NCBI RefSeq assembly: GCF_007993755.1
Contig: NZ_CP042467.1
Location: 3,682,001-3,746,000, forward strand
Length of the DNA stretch: 64,000 bases
Direction of reading: 5' to 3'
DNA from: Microvenator marinus
GTDB lineage: Bacteria > Myxococcota_A > Bradymonadia > Bradymonadales > Bradymonadaceae
Part shown: positions 29,083 to 39,216 of the stretch, one piece after another
Layout: every line of letters begins with the position of its first letter
How positions within the stretch are numbered: position 1 is the first letter of the stretch
Notes under the pieces: model-generated
The model's database searches: none
What the model saw: only the letters and a program-made list of their open reading frames with translations
Told to the model about the DNA's origin: nothing
Made by a program: the position numbers and the translations under genes

Positions 29083-30096
29083 CTAACGCTCGTCAAACGC
29101 CCTGAACACGGGCTCTAGCCCTTCTACCACCCTTGCGAACCGATCCCAATCCAGCGTGTCAGGTGTGTCGCCTGACGTGTGGTAGTTGTCATTCCTGAAG
29201 AATGCCGTGTCCGTCACCATAAGCGCTGGAATCCCAACTTGCCAGTACGACCACTGGTCGGAAAACCCGATGGCGCGGATAAAGCCCGGCCCCGCGAATC
29301 CGTACGCCGGAAAATCCACCGAATCGCGGAAGACGCCGGTGCTAAACGTCACGATATCCCTGTAAGACATCGAGCCCACGAACGCGATGAAGTCCCCGCG
29401 GTCAGGGTAGAAGGAGTCGAGGGGTGGCGGATAGTTTTGCGTGTTTGGCGCGGTATCGTAGTAGCCGAGCATCTCCAGCGAGAACATGCCGATAGCCTTG
29501 ATGTTGGGGTCATTAGCAAGCGACTTTGCGTGTACGAGGCTCCCCATGCCCTCGGTCTGAAAGTAGGGCGGCTCTTCGTTGGCGTAGAAGACAAAGAGAA
29601 GGTTCTTGGCCGCAGGTTTGTCCTTGAAGACTCTCGCGAGCTCCAGCCCACCCGCCACTCCCGAGGCGTTGTCGTCGGCACCGGGTGTGCTGGCGTATGT
29701 GTCGTAATGGGCGCCGATGACCAACGTGTCCTTGGTTTTGGCGGTGCCCGGAATTATTGCGATTACGTTAAACGCGTCTCCACGTTCGGTGGGTACGGCT
29801 TGGCGTGTACTTTCCAAGCCGAGCCCGGCAAGTCGGGCTTCGATGAACGCCACGCTCGACTCGTATTCATCGGGCTTTGAGTAGTTTCGGCGCAGTTGAG
29901 TCAGCGAGAGCACGTCGCGCTCAAGCCGTTTTTGCAGCTCGATGGTGTTTTTGGCTGGAAGCTCTCCTTCGTATGGCGTGCCAGGCATGGTGGTGCACCA
30001 GTAGAGGAAAAGCCAAAAGCTCAAGCCGATGACGAGCAAGGATACTGTGAGCAGAATGAGGACGTTCTTAATCTTAGCCATGGTAACCGTAGACAT
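29083..30096 (-). CDS. M28 family zinc aminopeptidase, membrane-anchored
   Basis: A 337-residue peptidase of the M28 (Zn-dependent exopeptidase) family. The N-terminus has a membrane helix (VLILLTVSLLVIGLSFWLFLY), probably an uncleaved anchor with the enzyme outside. Metal ligands appear in order: IGAHYDTYA (His, Asp), PGADDNASGV (Asp), YANEEPPY (Glu pair), LEMLGYYD, and NDNYHTSGDTPDT (His). Two starts are possible, ATG 30096 and ATG 30081; neither has a good ribosome site. The frame stays open far upstream, but that part is antisense to two well-supported genes and is not this protein. Its start faces the divergent E2-like gene at 30151. The likely job is peptide trimming in the periplasm or outside. 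Confidence 0.9.
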   Translation of the reverse strand: MSTVTMAKIKNVLILLTVSLLVIGLSFWLFLYWCTTMPGTPYEGELPAKNTIELQKRLERDVLSLTQLRRNYSKPDEYESSVAFIEARLAGLGLESTRQAVPTERGDAFNVIAIIPGTAKTKDTLVIGAHYDTYASTPGADDNASGVAGGLELARVFKDKPAAKNLLFVFYANEEPPYFQTEGMGSLVHAKSLANDPNIKAIGMFSLEMLGYYDTAPNTQNYPPPLDSFYPDRGDFIAFVGSMSYRDIVTFSTGVFRDSVDFPAYGFAGPGFIRAIGFSDQWSYWQVGIPALMVTDTAFFRNDNYHTSGDTPDTLDWDRFARVVEGLEPVFRAFDER

Positions 30097-30150
30097 TTGG
30101 AGGATTTCAATAGTAGAGTCCGCCGCGTTTGACTGGCATCGGAGCATACG

Positions 30151-31068
30151 ATGGGTAAATACTGGAGTCCTGTAAAGAAATTGTCGTCGTGGAGAAAGAT
30201 TTCGGTGGGCATGTGGGCCCCACCTGATGACCCCACGATCTACGGCTACGAAACCCTCATCGTCGATAAGGCCTTGCAGTACATCAAGGAAGTAGAGGAG
30301 GCCAGTGGCGTAAAGCTCACCATGACCTCGTTTATTGTCCTTGTCATGGCTCAGGCGATGGCTCAAGACCCGGTGCTCAACGTGATGGTGGTCAACGGCC
30401 GGATCCAGAAGCGAAATACGCTCGACGCCTTCTGCCAGGTCATGATTCCCGGTGACGGCCAAGCGGACCTTTCCGGCGTGCAGATTCGGTCGGTTGACGA
30501 GCTCAATCTCGTTGAGATTAACGAGGCTCTTAAGGGGCGAGCCAAGAAGGTGCGTGCGGGCGAGGACCAAGGGCTTGAGCGCCAGAAGAAGATGATCGAT
30601 CGCGTGCCACCGTGGTTGATTCGAAAGATGGTTCAATTGGTGGACTTCCTGACCTTCAACGTGCCCATAGACCTCGATGGGCTTGGCGTTCGCAGCGATC
30701 CATTCGGAAGCTTCATGGTGTCCAGTGTTGCATCGTTTGATATTCGACTTGGTTTTGCACCTCTGGTTCCTGCAAGCCGCACACCTCTTGTGGCGCTGCC
30801 TGGTGCTATCTTTGACCGACCGATGGTTGTGGACGGGGAGATCAAGGCCTGCAAAGTGATGCAAATGGGATGCACATTTGATCACCGGTGTTATGACGGC
30901 TATCAGATCGGCGTCATCGTTCGCTTCATCCGAGGTAGCGTCGAGAATCCTTATGAGTATTTCCCGCATCCATCGACCTTCGCCAAAGCGAAGGCCGGGC
31001 GTGTGGATGACTCGTCTGATGATATGGAACCCGCATTGGAGCGCGAAGAAGCGCCAGCCGAAGCTTAA
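30151..31068 (+). CDS. stand-alone 2-oxoacid dehydrogenase acyltransferase (E2) catalytic domain protein
   Basis: A 305-residue protein equal to the catalytic domain of E2 acyltransferases, with no lipoyl domain and no E3/E1-binding domain. The active-site motif is FDHRCYDGYQ (His245), matching the HRxxDG signature. Other family segments are VDKALQYIKEVEEASGVKLT and IPGDGQADLSGVQ. The N-terminus begins KYWSPVKKLSSWRKIS, where a normal E2 has its binding domain. The C-tail is an acidic, flexible stretch (SDDMEPALEREEAPAEA). Without a lipoyl arm it cannot act as a normal E2 core; it may be an acyltransferase acting on another carrier or a divergent acyl-CoA enzyme (inference). It is 24 bp upstream of asd. 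Confidence 0.85.
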   Translation: MGKYWSPVKKLSSWRKISVGMWAPPDDPTIYGYETLIVDKALQYIKEVEEASGVKLTMTSFIVLVMAQAMAQDPVLNVMVVNGRIQKRNTLDAFCQVMIPGDGQADLSGVQIRSVDELNLVEINEALKGRAKKVRAGEDQGLERQKKMIDRVPPWLIRKMVQLVDFLTFNVPIDLDGLGVRSDPFGSFMVSSVASFDIRLGFAPLVPASRTPLVALPGAIFDRPMVVDGEIKACKVMQMGCTFDHRCYDGYQIGVIVRFIRGSVENPYEYFPHPSTFAKAKAGRVDDSSDDMEPALEREEAPAEA

Positions 31069-31092
31069 TCGGCCAAAGGCCTTGGAGTCGAT

Positions 31093-32100
31093 ATGTCTGG
31101 ATATGTAGTTGCAGTGGCAGGTGGTACGGGAGCGGTGGGACGCGAAATCCTGAATACGCTTGAGCGTCGGGATTTTCCGGTTCGTGAACTTCGAATCTTG
31201 GCGTCGGCGCGCTCCGCCGGCTCGAGCATTGAGTTCAAGGGCGAAAAGGTCGTTGTTGAGGACCTGGAAAAAGCGCAGTTCCAAGGCGTGGACTTCGTGC
31301 TTTCGTCGCCAGGGGGCGCGGTGAGCAAGATTCATAGCCCGCGAATGGCCGAGCAAGGCGCGGTGGTCATCGACAACACCAGCGCATTCCGCATGGACCC
31401 GACGGTGCCGCTCGTGGTCCCCGAGGTCAATCCCGAGGCTGCGCTCACGCATCAGGGCATCATTGCGAACCCAAATTGCAGCACGATCCAGATGGTGGTG
31501 GCGCTCAATCCTTTGCACCGCGCGGCAGGCATCAAACGCGTGGTCGTGTCTACGTACCAGTCGGTCTCGGGCGCTGGCCAGACGGGGATCTGGGAGCTCT
31601 GGAACGGAGTCAAGGCGCGCGTGGCCGGCGAGTCCGAGCCCGAGCCGAGCACCTTTCCGCACCCGATCGCATTCGAGGTCATTCCGCAAATCGATAAGTT
31701 CGACCCGAGCGGATACACCAAAGAAGAACTCAAGATGGTCTATGAGACCCGAAAAATCATGGGAATCGAGACGATGGACGTCTCCGCGACCTGTGTGCGC
31801 GTGCCTGTGATGCGTGGCCACTCGGAGTCCATCACCGTGGATTTTGATAGGCCGCTGAGCGCAAAACAAGCTCAGGAAATACTTGGGGCCGCTCCCGGGG
31901 TTACATTGGCCGACTCCCCTGAGGAATCCGTTTACCCGCTGGCTCGTCATGCCGAAGGCACAGACACCACGTGGGTCGGCCGGATTCGTCAGGATATTTC
32001 GAGACCTCAGACCCTGCATATGTGGGTGGTCTCGGATAACCTCCTGAAAGGTGCCGCACTAAACGCCGTTCAGATCGCAGAACTATTGATCAAGCGCTGA
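31093..32100 (+). CDS. asd: aspartate-semialdehyde dehydrogenase
   Basis: A 335-residue NADP-dependent enzyme that reduces aspartyl phosphate to aspartate semialdehyde, on the route to lysine, diaminopimelate, threonine and methionine. The nucleotide motif VAVAGGTGAVGREILNTLE is at the N-terminus. The catalytic cysteine is Cys129 in NPNCSTIQM, and the substrate loop reads YQSVSGAGQTG. His and Arg in CVRVPVMRGHSES match the family. The length is standard. It is 24 bp downstream of the E2-like gene and 8 bp upstream of the next gene, but these neighbours do not point to lysine pathway clustering. Confidence 0.96.
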   Translation: MSGYVVAVAGGTGAVGREILNTLERRDFPVRELRILASARSAGSSIEFKGEKVVVEDLEKAQFQGVDFVLSSPGGAVSKIHSPRMAEQGAVVIDNTSAFRMDPTVPLVVPEVNPEAALTHQGIIANPNCSTIQMVVALNPLHRAAGIKRVVVSTYQSVSGAGQTGIWELWNGVKARVAGESEPEPSTFPHPIAFEVIPQIDKFDPSGYTKEELKMVYETRKIMGIETMDVSATCVRVPVMRGHSESITVDFDRPLSAKQAQEILGAAPGVTLADSPEESVYPLARHAEGTDTTWVGRIRQDISRPQTLHMWVVSDNLLKGAALNAVQIAELLIKR

Positions 32101-32108
32101 GAGCAAAG

Positions 32109-33758
32109 ATGAGACAAATTGTTTTTTGGATGATGATGGGTGTTGGTTTCAGTGCGTCTGCGCTTGAGCCCACGACAACCGCCCTCGTAGACGAGCTCAC
32201 GCTCAGCGTCCCAAGTACCTTCCTCGCCGAGGAAAACACTGCCTACGTTGGGATTACCGAGTGCGAGCGTATGTTGGCCGCCGGAAGTGAGGTGAATATC
32301 ACGTTCGGCACCACCATCGACCCATCGGAGGAGTCTGGCACGCAGCGGCGACTTGAGGCCGGCTATCTCTTCGAGGTGCCGCGGGGTTCAACGACACCGG
32401 TCAACTGCCCTTCGGGGTGCACCACGCTTGACGAAGACACGCAGGTGGTGCTGACCACCGAGCTCGTCCGATTGTTGATGCCCTTCAAAGATATGGTGGG
32501 TATCGCGAGCGCCGATGAGTGCGATGGATTTGATTCTGAGTTCTTCTTGCGCGCGTCCTTGCGCGAGGCCTCCGTAACCGACACGGAGCTCGTGACGGCA
32601 GACGCGCGGATCATCGTGGATACCGTGCGCCCAAGCCCTCCGGCGAATTTTGATATCACCGTGACCGAAGACCGAATCGATGCCTCGTGGGAACTCTCCG
32701 ATTCCGAAGACGTGGGTCAATACGGAATCTACTACAGCACCACGCCTTTTGATGGCGGCGTGGTTCCGGGATCTGGTTTGGGTTCTGAGTTTGTGACTGC
32801 CGCGGGTGGCCGAACCTCCGCGAGCTTTGTGGTCAGCACGCCCGCCGGCTCCACGGTCTACGTGGCTATGGTGGCCGTGGATGAGACGGGAAATGAGAGT
32901 ATTTTAAGCGCTGTTCAAAGCTCTCAGGCTATCGAGACGATCGATTTTTGGGAGTCCTACAAGGCCGCCGGTGGCGCTGAAGAAGGTGGATGCTCCACCG
33001 GTGCTGGGACTCTTGGCTTGTTGAGCCTTCTGGCTCTCTTTGGTTTTCGGCGTCGTCGTTTCTCCGCGCCGCTCGCTGCTGCCGCAATCGCTGCACCACT
33101 TCTTCTTGCTGCACCGAGTGCGCACGCAGAGTCCGATATCAACGGGATCTTTGAACTCAAGCTCGGGGGCATGTACCCAGCGATCGATGAAGAAGTATCG
33201 GGCACGCCGTTCCAAGACGTCTTTGGTACGGGCAATCTCTGGTACCTCGAGATGGAAGCCGGGTTCTATATCTGGCAGGGCTTCGGAAAGCTGGGCGTCT
33301 CCTATGCGCTTGGATATTCGAGCGTGACAGGAAATGCGGTGGCTGCAGACGGCTCGGAGATCTCAGATGAGACGAGCTTCAGCATGTTGCCGAACCGACT
33401 TTCATTACTCTACCGCTTTGATGTGCTGGCTACGCGCTACTTTATCCCGCTCGTACCAGCTGCAAAGGTCGGCCTCGACTACTACCTCTGGTGGTCTGAA
33501 GGACCAGACGGCGAGAATTCAGTGGCTGGTGGCGCTGAGGCGTTTGGCGGTAAATGGGGATATCACGGCTCCTTAGGACTGCACCTCTTGCTCGATGTCA
33601 TCGACTCCTCAAGTGCCGCAGTATTTGACCATAATTGGGGCGTAAACAATTCGTATCTCTTTGCGGAGTACGTCTTTGCCCAGGTCGACGATTTTGGCGG
33701 CGCTGGGCTGAATTTGAGCGACGACTACTTCATGTTCGGTCTCAACTTCGAATTCTAA
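32109..33758 (+). CDS. exported FN3-type protein with internal MYXO-CTERM-like signal fused to a beta-barrel
   Basis: One unbroken 549-residue frame with two halves. Residues 1-20 are a signal peptide. The region to about 285 has a fibronectin type III-like domain (ANFDITVTEDRIDASWELSD, then GIYYSTTPFDGG). At Cys295 (EEGGCSTGAG), a hydrophobic helix and the cluster RRRR (314-317) form a MYXO-CTERM-like sorting signal, normally found at the very C-terminus. Here it is followed by a second signal-peptide-like segment (APLLLAAPSAHAESD, cleavage near residue 340) and then about 210 residues of beta-barrel-like sequence ending in Phe-Glu-Phe. No internal ATG or ribosome site separates the halves. 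It is 8 bp downstream of asd. Confidence 0.82.
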   Translation: MRQIVFWMMMGVGFSASALEPTTTALVDELTLSVPSTFLAEENTAYVGITECERMLAAGSEVNITFGTTIDPSEESGTQRRLEAGYLFEVPRGSTTPVNCPSGCTTLDEDTQVVLTTELVRLLMPFKDMVGIASADECDGFDSEFFLRASLREASVTDTELVTADARIIVDTVRPSPPANFDITVTEDRIDASWELSDSEDVGQYGIYYSTTPFDGGVVPGSGLGSEFVTAAGGRTSASFVVSTPAGSTVYVAMVAVDETGNESILSAVQSSQAIETIDFWESYKAAGGAEEGGCSTGAGTLGLLSLLALFGFRRRRFSAPLAAAAIAAPLLLAAPSAHAESDINGIFELKLGGMYPAIDEEVSGTPFQDVFGTGNLWYLEMEAGFYIWQGFGKLGVSYALGYSSVTGNAVAADGSEISDETSFSMLPNRLSLLYRFDVLATRYFIPLVPAAKVGLDYYLWWSEGPDGENSVAGGAEAFGGKWGYHGSLGLHLLLDVIDSSSAAVFDHNWGVNNSYLFAEYVFAQVDDFGGAGLNLSDDYFMFGLNFEF

Positions 33759-33761
33759 GTC

Positions 33762-34955
33762 ATGACCTCACTTCTTTGGACGGAAAATTCTTGGGTCTCG
33801 GGCTCGCCTCAGGGCTATCCGGACGGCCAGATTGCATGGGTTCCGGGATTTGTGAACGCGCATTCCCACGCGTTTCAACACGCCATGCGCGCCCGCGCCG
33901 AGTACGCTACGCCTGGCGGAGACGACTTCTGGACCTGGCGAAACGCGATGTACGAGCTGGCCCTTAGCCTTGGGCCCGAAGAGCTCTATCAGGTGAGTAA
34001 AGACGCGTTTAGCGAGATGCGTCAGGCTGGAATCGTGCATGTTGGGGAGTTTCACTACGTGCATCACGCGCAAGATGGGAGCCGCTACGCGGACCCTAAC
34101 GAGCTTGCGCACCAGGTGATTCGCGCCGCACAAGATGCTGGCATTGGGATTACGCTCTTGTTGGTGGCGTATCATCGCGCAGGCTTTGGGCGCGCCGCAG
34201 AGCCCCACCAGCGCCGTTTTATCGAACCTACCTTGGAGGGCTACCTTTCGCGCGTCGAAGCGCTTCTGGAGCGATATAAGGGCGCCGACGGCGTCAATAT
34301 TGGAGTCGCACCCCATAGTATTCGTGCGGTGCCGGCCGAGTGGCTCTCGGGTATTCGAGATTTTGCAGTCGAGCACGGGATTCCCCTTCATATTCATGCC
34401 AATGAGCAGGTGCGTGAGATTGAGGAGAGCAAGGCAGAGTACGGCAAACCTCCGGTCTTGGTCTTTGATGAACTCGGGCTCTTTGAGGCGCATACCACTC
34501 TGGTTCATGCCACCCATCTGAGCGTGGAAGAGCTCGATGTTTTGGGCCGCGCAAAACCTGTGATTTGTGCGTGCCCAACCACCGAAAGAAATCTCGGAGA
34601 TGGCTTCTTGCCCGCACTGGAACTCGTGAAGCGCGACGTCCCTATCTGTATCGGCTCGGATAGTCATACTCAGGTCGACTTCATCGAGGAGATGCGAATT
34701 ATCGAGTACCACGAACGTCTGCGCTACCAACGGCGAAACGTCTTGGCGCAGGTGTACTCGGAGCGCGTAGGTGGTCCCGTGGAGACTGGCGATGTGCTAT
34801 TGCCCATGAGCTCCAAGAATGGCGCTCTATCTTTGGGGCTAGATTCAGTGGATTGGATCGGCTTTGATTTGGAACACCCGGCATTGAAAGGGTGGACTGA
34901 GCAGACGCTGAGTTCGCATTTGGTCCTTTGTACAAGCGGGCTTCGTCCGGCTTAG
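33762..34955 (+). CDS. hutF: formimidoylglutamate deiminase
   Basis: An amidohydrolase-superfamily enzyme of 397 residues that hydrolyses N-formimidoyl-L-glutamate to formylglutamate and ammonia in histidine degradation. The zinc-binding HxH is in VNAHSHAFQHAM; other family residues are in EFHYVHH, LHIHANEQ, LVHATHLSVEE, CACPTTERNLGDG and IGSDSHTQVD. This set matches HutF better than other deaminases. It is shorter than most HutF (about 450) because the N-terminal beta-sandwich is reduced. It starts 3 bp after the preceding stop. No other hut gene is adjacent, so the rest of the pathway must be elsewhere. Confidence 0.87.
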   Translation: MTSLLWTENSWVSGSPQGYPDGQIAWVPGFVNAHSHAFQHAMRARAEYATPGGDDFWTWRNAMYELALSLGPEELYQVSKDAFSEMRQAGIVHVGEFHYVHHAQDGSRYADPNELAHQVIRAAQDAGIGITLLLVAYHRAGFGRAAEPHQRRFIEPTLEGYLSRVEALLERYKGADGVNIGVAPHSIRAVPAEWLSGIRDFAVEHGIPLHIHANEQVREIEESKAEYGKPPVLVFDELGLFEAHTTLVHATHLSVEELDVLGRAKPVICACPTTERNLGDGFLPALELVKRDVPICIGSDSHTQVDFIEEMRIIEYHERLRYQRRNVLAQVYSERVGGPVETGDVLLPMSSKNGALSLGLDSVDWIGFDLEHPALKGWTEQTLSSHLVLCTSGLRPA

Positions 34956-35426: not shown

Positions 35427-36526
35427 AAGGCGCCTCCCATAGTCAAAAGGGCACCGTCCCCAAGCCCTTCGTTCAAAGGCTGAACTCCAAAACGCACGCC
35501 AGCAAGCTCTTCCGGTGTGTCCCAATTCTCATGGGTGGCCCAGGTGGCGAGGGCCAGTCCCGAGACCATGCCCACAATACCTCCGGTGAACACAAAAGGT
35601 GCCGAGGGAGAATCACCCTGGATCAAGACCGGTACGCCCAGCCCCACCAACGACCCGGCGATGCCGGATGCGTCGATAATTAGGCTTCTTCCGCGGCTCA
35701 TTGGGTAGTGGCGCGTCAAGACGCTGCCGAGGATAAGGCCGGCATCCGAAGCCAGGAGCAGTGATGCCCAGATCGCCTTTTCTGAGGCCGCGAACTCGGT
35801 CGCACCGTGAACGAAGAAGGTCAGCAGACCCGCCCAGAGTCCGGTTGAGGTGGCCATCGAGACATCGCCCGAGCTCGGCTGAAGGTTGTTATAGATGAGA
35901 TAGCCAGTGCCAAGACCTAGAAGCTGCGTTCCCATCATGATGCCGGCCGTCTCTTTTTCGTCGAGGTCGAGCAGCATGCTTCCTGCAAGTCCCTGCCACG
36001 CGCCCCAATAGGTGCCGGAATTCATGGCCGATGCCATGCCTGGATAGACGCCCTCTTCACGGTTTACGAGGAGTGAGAAGGTCAAGCCAGCCCCCGCCCC
36101 AACCAATAAGGTTGAGATGGTCGAGCGCCCTGAATCGCACTCGATAACGATACACATCTCGATTCCGAGCGCGATCCCGTGCAGGGTTTGGGTCACCACG
36201 AGCTCGCCGCGGGCAAGCCCGCTCGGAAACTCATTTCCTCGCCGCCGCCCGGGTTTAGCCTGCTCAACTTCAGGGCCTTCCTCGTAGAAGATATCCAAGA
36301 CCGCATTGGCCTTCAGCGCGATTGGATCTGCAGGGTAGACGAGAAGAATCATCTCGAGGTCCCGCACCGCTCCATCCGGGTCGCCCGACGCCAGTTTCAC
36401 AAAGGCTCTGTCGTAAAGCTCCTCGGCTGTGGTGCGCTCCGTTCGACCCTCTACCACAAGGTCCTGAGCAGCACTCAAGCCGGGCACGAGCATCATAGCT
36501 AGCAAAAGTGCAAACACCCATCTCAT
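35423..36526 (-). CDS. exported/multi-pass membrane protein with N-terminal TPR-like segment
   Basis: A 367-residue protein. A signal peptide (MRWVFALLLAMMLVPGLSAAQ) is followed by a single TPR-like motif (AEELYDRAFVKLASGDPDGAVRDLE) and a Glu/Arg linker. About 230 residues of hydrophobic, Gly-rich sequence follow, with six to eight possible membrane segments (for example ISTLLVGAGAGLTFSLLV and FTGGIVGMVSGLALATWA). The family is unknown. The Gly/Ser-rich segments could be helices of an inner-membrane protein or strands of a barrel. It overlaps the upstream gene (ATGA) and the downstream esterase (TTGA), so all three are translationally linked. Confidence 0.72.
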   Translation of the reverse strand: MRWVFALLLAMMLVPGLSAAQDLVVEGRTERTTAEELYDRAFVKLASGDPDGAVRDLEMILLVYPADPIALKANAVLDIFYEEGPEVEQAKPGRRRGNEFPSGLARGELVVTQTLHGIALGIEMCIVIECDSGRSTISTLLVGAGAGLTFSLLVNREEGVYPGMASAMNSGTYWGAWQGLAGSMLLDLDEKETAGIMMGTQLLGLGTGYLIYNNLQPSSGDVSMATSTGLWAGLLTFFVHGATEFAASEKAIWASLLLASDAGLILGSVLTRHYPMSRGRSLIIDASGIAGSLVGLGVPVLIQGDSPSAPFVFTGGIVGMVSGLALATWATHENWDTPEELAGVRFGVQPLNEGLGDGALLTMGGAF

Positions 36527-39042
36527 GGCTGAACTCTCCGACGCACAAGGCCAAGGCCCATCATGAGGAGCACGAAGGAGATGCCGGAACCGGTGGTGTT
36601 GCAGCCGCCGTCATCACCGCCTCCGCCGCCCGAAGCATTTCCGGGGCCGGGTTCGTCGGTCGTCATCTGGCATTCGCCTTCTTCGCAGCTGTAGCCGTTG
36701 ATGCAGTCGGCATCGATGGCACACGATGTGGCGCACCCTGACGCCGGGTTACATCCCACGTATGGGGCGCACTCTTGGCCTTCAGGCTGAACACAGGAGC
36801 CTGCACCGTCGCAGGTCAGAACTTCGTAGAAGGTGCTTCCAACACAGGTGCTCTCGCCGCAGACCGTTGAGCTGTCGTACTCAGCGCACGCGCCTTCGCC
36901 GTCACATGTACCTGTGAATCCGCACGTGTCTTCGGCCTCGCGGCGGCATGCGCCTGAGCCCGAACCGTCAGCCTTGAGTGGTGGTTGCTTTCCGGCAACA
37001 ACCGGCGCGCAGGTCCCGTCTGGCTCTCCGGTATCTTGGAGCACGCAGCTCTCGCACGGGCTATCGCACGCGGAGTCGCAACACTGGCCGCTCTCAACTC
37101 CGCCCACGCACGGGGCGTTGAAACAACGGGCGTTGGACACGCAGAGACCACCCGCAAATCCGCGGGCGCGGGTCCACTTACCGAAGTAGATATCGCGCTG
37201 GTTAATGAGCGCGATCGGAGCGCGCACAGGGCGAAGGTCTGCGGCAAGTCTTCGAACCGAGCCAAATTGCCCCGATATGAGGAACGTAGAGCCGTTGTAG
37301 GAGATGTCGAAAATATCATAGCCGTTGAACACGTTGGACGCGCTTCCGAGCGCTACGCCTTCGTTGTTTAGACGGATGAGCGAGCCCCCAGCCCCTGCCA
37401 AAATCCACTCGAGACCGTTGAATTCCACCGCATAGACGGGGCCCTCAAAGCCGCTCAGGCTGACCGGATCGTCGCGTAGGTTGCCGTTGGAGGCGACCAT
37501 CACGTAGACGCCGGTTCCCTGCGTGTTGAGGCCGGCGACCATCCACTCCACAGCGTTGCTCTTGGCTGCGTAAAGGGTTTCTACACCTTCAATCTGGACC
37601 GGCGCGCCGCCCGAGGTACCGTCTGGGCGAACGCGCTCGTAGGTTCCGTCGTCGCCACCGATAAGCCAGAAGCCGGGGCCCCATGACACGAATCGAATGG
37701 TTTTGGAGTCTAGCAGGGTGTTTGGGGTGCCCTTGGGCGTCCCGTCCTGGCCGACCAACTGGGTAAACCCGTTCTCGCCTGCCACGAGGAAGTCCGTTCC
37801 GTTGAATGCTGCGGCATATAGCGTGCCGTCTGTTTCCAGGGTTTGGGCATCCGATTTTGGCGCGCCCATGAGGTCAAAGAGTTGGATACGACCTTCGTCA
37901 CCCACCAGTAGAACACCGTCTGTCGCAATATCACCACCGCGAACCGTGCGTCCTTCAAGGCGCGCGTCGAGCGTACGAAGTTGCGTGAGGTCGGCGCCCA
38001 CAAATTCTACGAATCCGATTTCGCCGAGCGCAATGCGCCACGATTCGTCCACGAGCCACGCGGCGACTGGCGTTCTGGACGTAGCCAGGTCAACCGCTTG
38101 TCCGCTCGGCGCGCCGGTAGCATCGAGGAGTCGAACTTGGCCTTCGCGACCGAGCACGATGCTCTGACCATCGGCAACTTCAATCTTTTGAACAGCCTGG
38201 TTAAAGACTTGATTCCACGCGTCAAAGGTCCGCGTAGCTGGGTCCATGATCCCGACTCGGCCATCCGCGGTGCCGACGAGGATCTTTCCGTTCTGGAAGA
38301 CTGCGTCTGTGACTTCAATACCCGCCTCAATAACTTGGACTCCACCTTGCGGTACGCCAGTTTGGCGCACGAATTCGAACGAATCGCCGCCGAAGACAAT
38401 CCACCCGCTTGGCGCGCCAGAGCTTGGCGTGCCTGCGGTAGCTACGGCAGAAATGACGCGAGTTTCGAGCACGTCATTGACAGTGCCGGACTCCAACGTG
38501 GCGTTTGCGGTTGCGACGCGGTCCTCAGACGCAAAGAGCCATGTCAGCCCGTTAAACGCCGCATCCACCAGGTTCTCACCATCAAGGAGCACGGCTTCCG
38601 TCTCGGTCGGCTCACCCTCAGCGTCCAGGACCATGGCGTTTCCGCCTTGCCCACCAATCACCCAGCCGATGTTTGCCTTTCGAATGAAGTTGACCGGCGC
38701 GCCCTCAAAGACCATGCGCATATCGCGAAGGCGGTTGACCTCGGTGTCCACGGCTTGGAGGCGTCCGTCGCCGACCAGCACCCAGCGTTGGCCATCAAAT
38801 GATGCATCGTTGACCGAATTTCCATCGAGCACAAAGCGGCCGGTCAGCACGTCCGGTTCGCCGTCATTGCCGCCCGCCAACTCCACGAGGCCCTCATCAC
38901 CCGCCAAGAACCAGTTCGGTGAATCCGTCTCCACGACGGCTTGAACCTCCGTCTGAACCTGAGGTTCCGGCTCTTCTTCGGTCTCGATACAAGCCAAAGA
39001 ACCTAGAGAAATGAGTCCAATTCCAATCCAAAATTTCAGCAT
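36523..39042 (-). CDS. large repeat lipoprotein (beta-propeller-like) with Cys-rich segment and MYXO-CTERM
   Basis: About 839 residues from ATG 39042, which has GGGAGGC upstream and gives a lipoprotein signal (LISLGSLAC, Cys18). Residues about 40-610 consist of repeated units with Gly-rich turns and the pattern W-hydrophobic-hydrophobic-G-G-x-G, for example GWVIGGQGGN, EWILAGAGGS and FWLIGGDDGT, separated by about 40-45 residues, like the blades of a propeller. A Cys-rich region follows (CCDSACDSPCESCV). The C-terminus is a MYXO-CTERM signal: a Gly/Asp run, GGCNTTG, a hydrophobic helix, RRR. It therefore has both an N-terminal lipid anchor and a C-terminal sorting signal. It is the first gene of the three-gene operon. 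Confidence 0.85.
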   Translation of the reverse strand: MLKFWIGIGLISLGSLACIETEEEPEPQVQTEVQAVVETDSPNWFLAGDEGLVELAGGNDGEPDVLTGRFVLDGNSVNDASFDGQRWVLVGDGRLQAVDTEVNRLRDMRMVFEGAPVNFIRKANIGWVIGGQGGNAMVLDAEGEPTETEAVLLDGENLVDAAFNGLTWLFASEDRVATANATLESGTVNDVLETRVISAVATAGTPSSGAPSGWIVFGGDSFEFVRQTGVPQGGVQVIEAGIEVTDAVFQNGKILVGTADGRVGIMDPATRTFDAWNQVFNQAVQKIEVADGQSIVLGREGQVRLLDATGAPSGQAVDLATSRTPVAAWLVDESWRIALGEIGFVEFVGADLTQLRTLDARLEGRTVRGGDIATDGVLLVGDEGRIQLFDLMGAPKSDAQTLETDGTLYAAAFNGTDFLVAGENGFTQLVGQDGTPKGTPNTLLDSKTIRFVSWGPGFWLIGGDDGTYERVRPDGTSGGAPVQIEGVETLYAAKSNAVEWMVAGLNTQGTGVYVMVASNGNLRDDPVSLSGFEGPVYAVEFNGLEWILAGAGGSLIRLNNEGVALGSASNVFNGYDIFDISYNGSTFLISGQFGSVRRLAADLRPVRAPIALINQRDIYFGKWTRARGFAGGLCVSNARCFNAPCVGGVESGQCCDSACDSPCESCVLQDTGEPDGTCAPVVAGKQPPLKADGSGSGACRREAEDTCGFTGTCDGEGACAEYDSSTVCGESTCVGSTFYEVLTCDGAGSCVQPEGQECAPYVGCNPASGCATSCAIDADCINGYSCEEGECQMTTDEPGPGNASGGGGGDDGGCNTTGSGISFVLLMMGLGLVRRRVQP

Positions 39043-39216
39043 TAAATAGCCTCCCGAGTCGTAGTACTCAGACCTCAATACAACCTTATGAATTAAATAT
39101 CGAGATCATTAGTCGACTTGTAGAAGTTGGCTTGCACCCGAAACATCTGATAGCGTTTTCGACGATATACCCCATGGTGTGCCCGAGGGCGCAAAAGAAT
39201 CAAAAGGCAAAAGATA

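Follow-up and report, generated by a model that had tools for sequence, protein, structure and literature searches.

The window, the whole 64,000-nucleotide stretch of the Microvenator marinus genome that was analysed, contains a 549-amino-acid open reading frame in which an exported FN3-type half and a predicted outer membrane beta-barrel are joined across an internal sorting tag and a second signal peptide. Signal peptides and topology were assessed by eye, hydropathy and motif, and the frame, its parts and its upstream neighbour are laid out as follows.

31093 to 32100, plus strand: asd (aspartate-semialdehyde dehydrogenase; TIGR01296, 453 bits), 8 nt upstream of the fused ORF.
32109 to 33758, plus strand: the fused ORF, 549 amino acids, open without internal stop; homologous fused frames occur in 53 other genomes.
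32109 to 32165, plus strand: first, N-terminal signal peptide, residues ~1-19 (MRQIVFWMMMGVGFSASAL), read from the sequence, where the AlphaFold model is not confident.
32199 to 32945, plus strand: exported two-domain beta half, MXAN_2561-like, residues ~31-279 (NF045522, AlphaFold, Foldseek).
32985 to 33059, plus strand: internal MYXO-CTERM tag, residues 293-317, with Gly-Gly-Cys295, helix 300-316 and Arg314-317 (TIGR03901 below cut-off, conservation, model).
33060 to 33128, plus strand: second, internal signal peptide, residues 318-340, ending in SAHA (A340 conservation; hydrophobic segment and [ASGV]xA site).
33129 to 33755, plus strand: 8-stranded outer membrane beta-barrel of the MXAN_2562 family, residues 341-549 (NF040596, AlphaFold, Foldseek).

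The original prediction described an exported FN3-type half that ends in Gly-Cys, a helix and RRRR (residues 293-317), and a frame that runs on past this tag into a segment ending in APSAHAESD and a barrel-like domain. Translation of 32109-33758 bears out both points: the tag reads GGC295STGAGTLGLLSLLALFGFRRRR317, FSAPLAAAAIAAPLLLAAPSAHA340-ESD follows directly, and the C-terminal domain begins without an intervening stop. Cysteine, transmembrane helix and arginine-rich end, the three parts that define a MYXO-CTERM, are all present (Cys295, helix 300-316, RRRR), and the tag is followed by a further 232 residues instead of lying at the C-terminus. Judged by eye and hydropathy, the next segment has the basic RRRR, hydrophobic core and AHA of an internal signal peptidase I substrate, and a signal peptidase I cut is predicted after Ala340.

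Profile searches placed the barrel in NF040596 (the MXAN_2562 family) with 219.4 bits over residues 346-549, against a cut-off of 100. The N-terminal half matched NF045522, the MXAN_2561 MXYO-CTERM-anchored family, with 61.4 bits (E 1e-16, residues 134-316), under that profile's cut-off of 150; on its sequence it reads as a clear relative of the MXAN_2561 family rather than a member by cut-off. The MYXO-CTERM profile TIGR03901 scored the tag at 15.1 bits (profile positions 2-33 of 34), short of the cut-off of 20, which ~29 other sites in the Microvenator marinus genome exceed. In its AlphaFold model the barrel has 8 strands with a mean pLDDT of 96, and the closest types in Foldseek were OmpW (E 3.6e-6), NspA, OmpA and OmpX; a search of solved structures for sequence relatives of the barrel returned none that was convincing (best E 0.26). 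The full-length model shows beta domains in the N-terminal half, which Foldseek matched to FN3 proteins and of which the second is of the FN3 type, followed by two low-confidence helices (300-316 and 320-332) and, at residue 346, the first strand of the barrel.

The barrel family is common among relatives, scoring over cut-off in 52 of the 57 genomes of the class and, across the phylum, in 218 of the 377 genomes sampled. We fetched 163 loci, many of them from metagenome assemblies, and used profiles made from the window's two halves to search the open stretches in all six frames; 159 could be scored, the upstream half not being found in the other four. Whether the halves are encoded separately elsewhere or the fusion is conserved turned out to have both answers, with two genes in 105 of the 159 loci and one open frame in 54, although at least one of the fused calls may be artefactual (G218, whose linker of 161 residues is odd). 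Some families are uniformly fused (f11, 21/21; f5, 6/6; f31, 4/4; f7, 3/3) and others uniformly separate (f13, 30/30; f15, 10/10; f33, 10/10), while the window's own family, f1, has 6 fused and 14 separate loci. In a scan of named genomes, Myxococcus, Corallococcus, Pyxidicoccus and Archangium had two separate genes, which in most cases overlap as ATGA. The asd gene adjoins the pair in 73 fetched loci from 10 families (short flanks) and is thus a conserved upstream neighbour of a pair that is widespread in Myxococcota.

Separate genes appear to be the older state, because the stop codon, the offset start and the ribosome site would be lost more easily than regained. In 90 of the 105 separate loci the start of the downstream gene and the stop of the upstream one share 4 nt (ATGA, GTGA or TTGA), so that a gain of one nucleotide or a loss of two would remove the stop and join the frames in a single step. 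At least 17 changes between the fused and separate states are needed on the full barrel tree, and at least nine when only well-supported branches are counted, on what is a quick tree with many weak branches that gives no direction of change.

Both signals are retained in the fused proteins. Cys295 is invariant among 31 aligned sequences, and R316 and A340 are each at least 90% conserved. The order of helix, basic cluster and helix is present in 54 of 54 fused loci, as is a site of the signal peptidase I type, which is AxA in 50 and SYA, GQA, VQA or SQA in the remaining four. Because 54 of 159 loci share this arrangement of parts and these three residues are conserved, we take the window's tag to be more than a chance match despite its score. 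A CFI-box tag (NF041770), assigned by motif in every case and by NCBIfam in the four loci scanned, replaces the MYXO-CTERM at the same place in 14 fused loci (including L075, L135, L167 and L113), indicating that the sorting tag is exchangeable while the layout stays; our literature search found no mention of the CFI-box. Within 13 close pairs, changes across the junction numbered 260, 191 and 469 at codon positions 1, 2 and 3, an excess at the third position showing that the junction is read in this frame. Amino acid change in the same pairs was faster in the junction (33%) than in the FN3 half (27%) or the barrel (15%), as would be expected of a segment destined for removal.

We consider it quite probable that the frame encodes a translated polyprotein, which arose by fusion of a translationally coupled MXAN_2561-like and MXAN_2562-like pair and is processed at two sites suggested by sequence and topology. 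The first signal peptide would export the FN3 half, the MYXO-CTERM helix would halt transfer, keeping RRRR on the cytoplasmic side, and the next hydrophobic segment would restart it. Signal peptidase I could then cut after Ala340 and free the barrel for insertion into the outer membrane, while a myxosortase, here MrtP (its gene scores 357 bits in this genome, cut-off 250), would remove everything after a lipidated Cys295 and allow the FN3 half to reach the cell surface. Topology, both cleavages, lipidation and surface placement are modelled on the known pathway (Guo, Haft and Wall 2025, PMC11980579). Since the pairing of FN3 half and barrel is constant, the two products presumably act together. 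The idea of a polyprotein cut into a sorted surface protein and a barrel, raised in the original prediction, is favoured by the recurrence of the fusion, its fixation in f11 and the retention of both signals, and the cuts themselves are deduced.

An alternative is that one frame supports two translation events, with internal re-initiation making the barrel separately. An in-frame ATG, GTG or TTG does lie somewhere in the region in 44 of the 54 fused loci, and in the window two TTG codons (33018 and 33021) fall within the tag helix, although none of the three codons occurs between R317 and M355. A start at either TTG would give an abnormal signal peptide with RRRR midway along it. A start accompanied by a Shine-Dalgarno sequence is found in frame near the second signal in 76 of 105 separate loci versus 2 of 54 fused ones (Fisher p ~2e-18, a guide only because the test treats related genomes as independent). 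The internal ribosome site is lost in the fused frames, and re-initiation is in our view unlikely.

Processing as a polyprotein could also be incomplete, with signal peptidase cutting and a degraded MYXO-CTERM failing to recruit the myxosortase, which would leave the FN3 half in the inner membrane. The low score of the window's tag is in keeping with this. However, the cysteine has not varied among the fused proteins, the internal tag of the fused protein from another genome (G007) scores 22.9 bits and passes the TIGR03901 cut-off, and MrtP is encoded in the genome, all of which make a failed sorting step improbable.

It is very unlikely that the chain stays uncut and that FN3 half, hairpin and barrel work as one protein, even though fusion is a usual means of tying partners together. 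In the AlphaFold model the first strand (346) follows the second helix (320-332) at a distance of only 13 residues, too few to span the gap between inner and outer membrane, so without a cut the barrel would stay tied to a hairpin in the inner membrane and be unable to reach the outer one. The conserved alanine at the cleavage site and the fast change of the junction relative to both flanking halves also argue against an uncut chain.

That two genes are joined in this genome only, through an error of sequencing or assembly or through a stop lost very recently, is scarcely credible and was rejected: the nearest barrel relative of the window (G004) does have two genes with an ATGA overlap, but the fused frame recurs in 53 other loci, including the single-contig genomes G007 and G010 and every locus of f11, and the window has no start codon between R317 and M355. 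The original prediction's second reading, that a lost stop has fused two genes, therefore holds insofar as the genes are separate in most relatives, and fails insofar as it pointed to a local error.

It is rare for a bacterial polyprotein to be cleaved into proteins that are sorted differently. In the cytochrome b/c1 precursor FbcH of Bradyrhizobium, a polyprotein, signal peptidase cleaves at an internal signal peptide, and the products are respiratory subunits without a C-terminal sorting tag. For MYXO-CTERM proteins, internal motifs occur in rare cases, and for one of them, MXAN_5598 of Myxococcus xanthus, a gene fusion and processing of the N-terminal half have been suggested (PMC11980579), so the principle of internal MYXO-CTERM fusion and processing is already published. 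MXAN_5598 resembles the present protein in that its MYXO-CTERM is internal, with an outer membrane barrel on the C-terminal side and, in its case, an adhesin region on the N-terminal side. It belongs to another family, however, has an OmpA-type domain and is encoded within a cell division cluster. It is also one atypical gene, whereas the fusion described here recurs across many lineages in place of an overlapping gene pair.

The direct counterparts in Myxococcaceae are MXAN_2561 and MXAN_2562 (NF045522 and NF040596), of whose families our FN3 half is a near-member and our barrel half a member. There they are separate overlapping genes, whereas here they form one frame from which stop, start and ribosome site have been lost; our literature search found no paper on this pair. 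TraA and TraB of Myxococcus are likewise encoded by overlapping ORFs for a MYXO-CTERM surface protein and an outer membrane barrel protein (PMC11980579), but they are not fused and serve outer membrane exchange, and no Tra family matched the fused protein in our tests, making the sequences unrelated as far as tested. What is new here is that a different orthologous pair has been fused repeatedly, with the internal ribosome site lost, both signals kept and the tag swapped. Because the same pair is fused repeatedly, its separate and fused relatives serve as natural controls, and the fused pair offers a direct test of the myxosortase action on an internal tag that was proposed for MXAN_5598. It also predicts a functional pair of surface protein and barrel in many Myxococcota genomes.

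A second internal tag lies outside the window in the same genome. Inspection of the best 30 TIGR03901 sites of the genome included a 5,146-amino-acid open frame (G000:C1:2398265-2413702, minus strand; L239) with an internal MYXO-CTERM, whose junction at ~2404442-2404534 passes from the tag directly into a lipoprotein-type signal (RPRRKKIRERLKKLIPCVVLAFMVGC). CARDB and transglutaminase-like domains precede this tag and a MopE-type repeat follows it, and homologous frames of ~5,200-5,400 amino acids in three further genomes (G004, G025 and G029) have the same order. There is perhaps an even chance that internal sorting tags are general separators in Myxococcota envelope polyproteins, in which a tag helix and basic cluster would terminate one exported protein, the cluster doubling as the opening of a new signal peptide. 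Either MYXO-CTERM or CFI-box could supply the tag in such a scheme, with a second signal of type I (for a barrel) or type II (for a lipoprotein).

Other frames around the fused gene were also annotated. An 851-amino-acid ORF at 36523-39078 (minus strand) ends in a canonical MYXO-CTERM-like tail, truly C-terminal in this case (GGCNTTGSGISFVLLMMGLGLVRRRVQP). Starting 3 nt after the stop of the fused gene, 33762-34955 (plus strand) encodes a hutF-like formimidoylglutamate deiminase, a neighbour that was not found in the other fetched loci, whose downstream flanks are short. Just upstream of asd, 30151-31068 (plus strand) encodes a protein in which the only 2-oxoacid dehydrogenase acyltransferase domain is the catalytic one (PF00198, 63 bits), with no lipoyl domain reported. 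Over its first two thirds, a 978-amino-acid open frame on the minus strand (29083-32019) overlaps asd and the acyltransferase gene in antisense; this long antisense part is probably due to chance, and the end of the frame resembles an M28-type peptidase.
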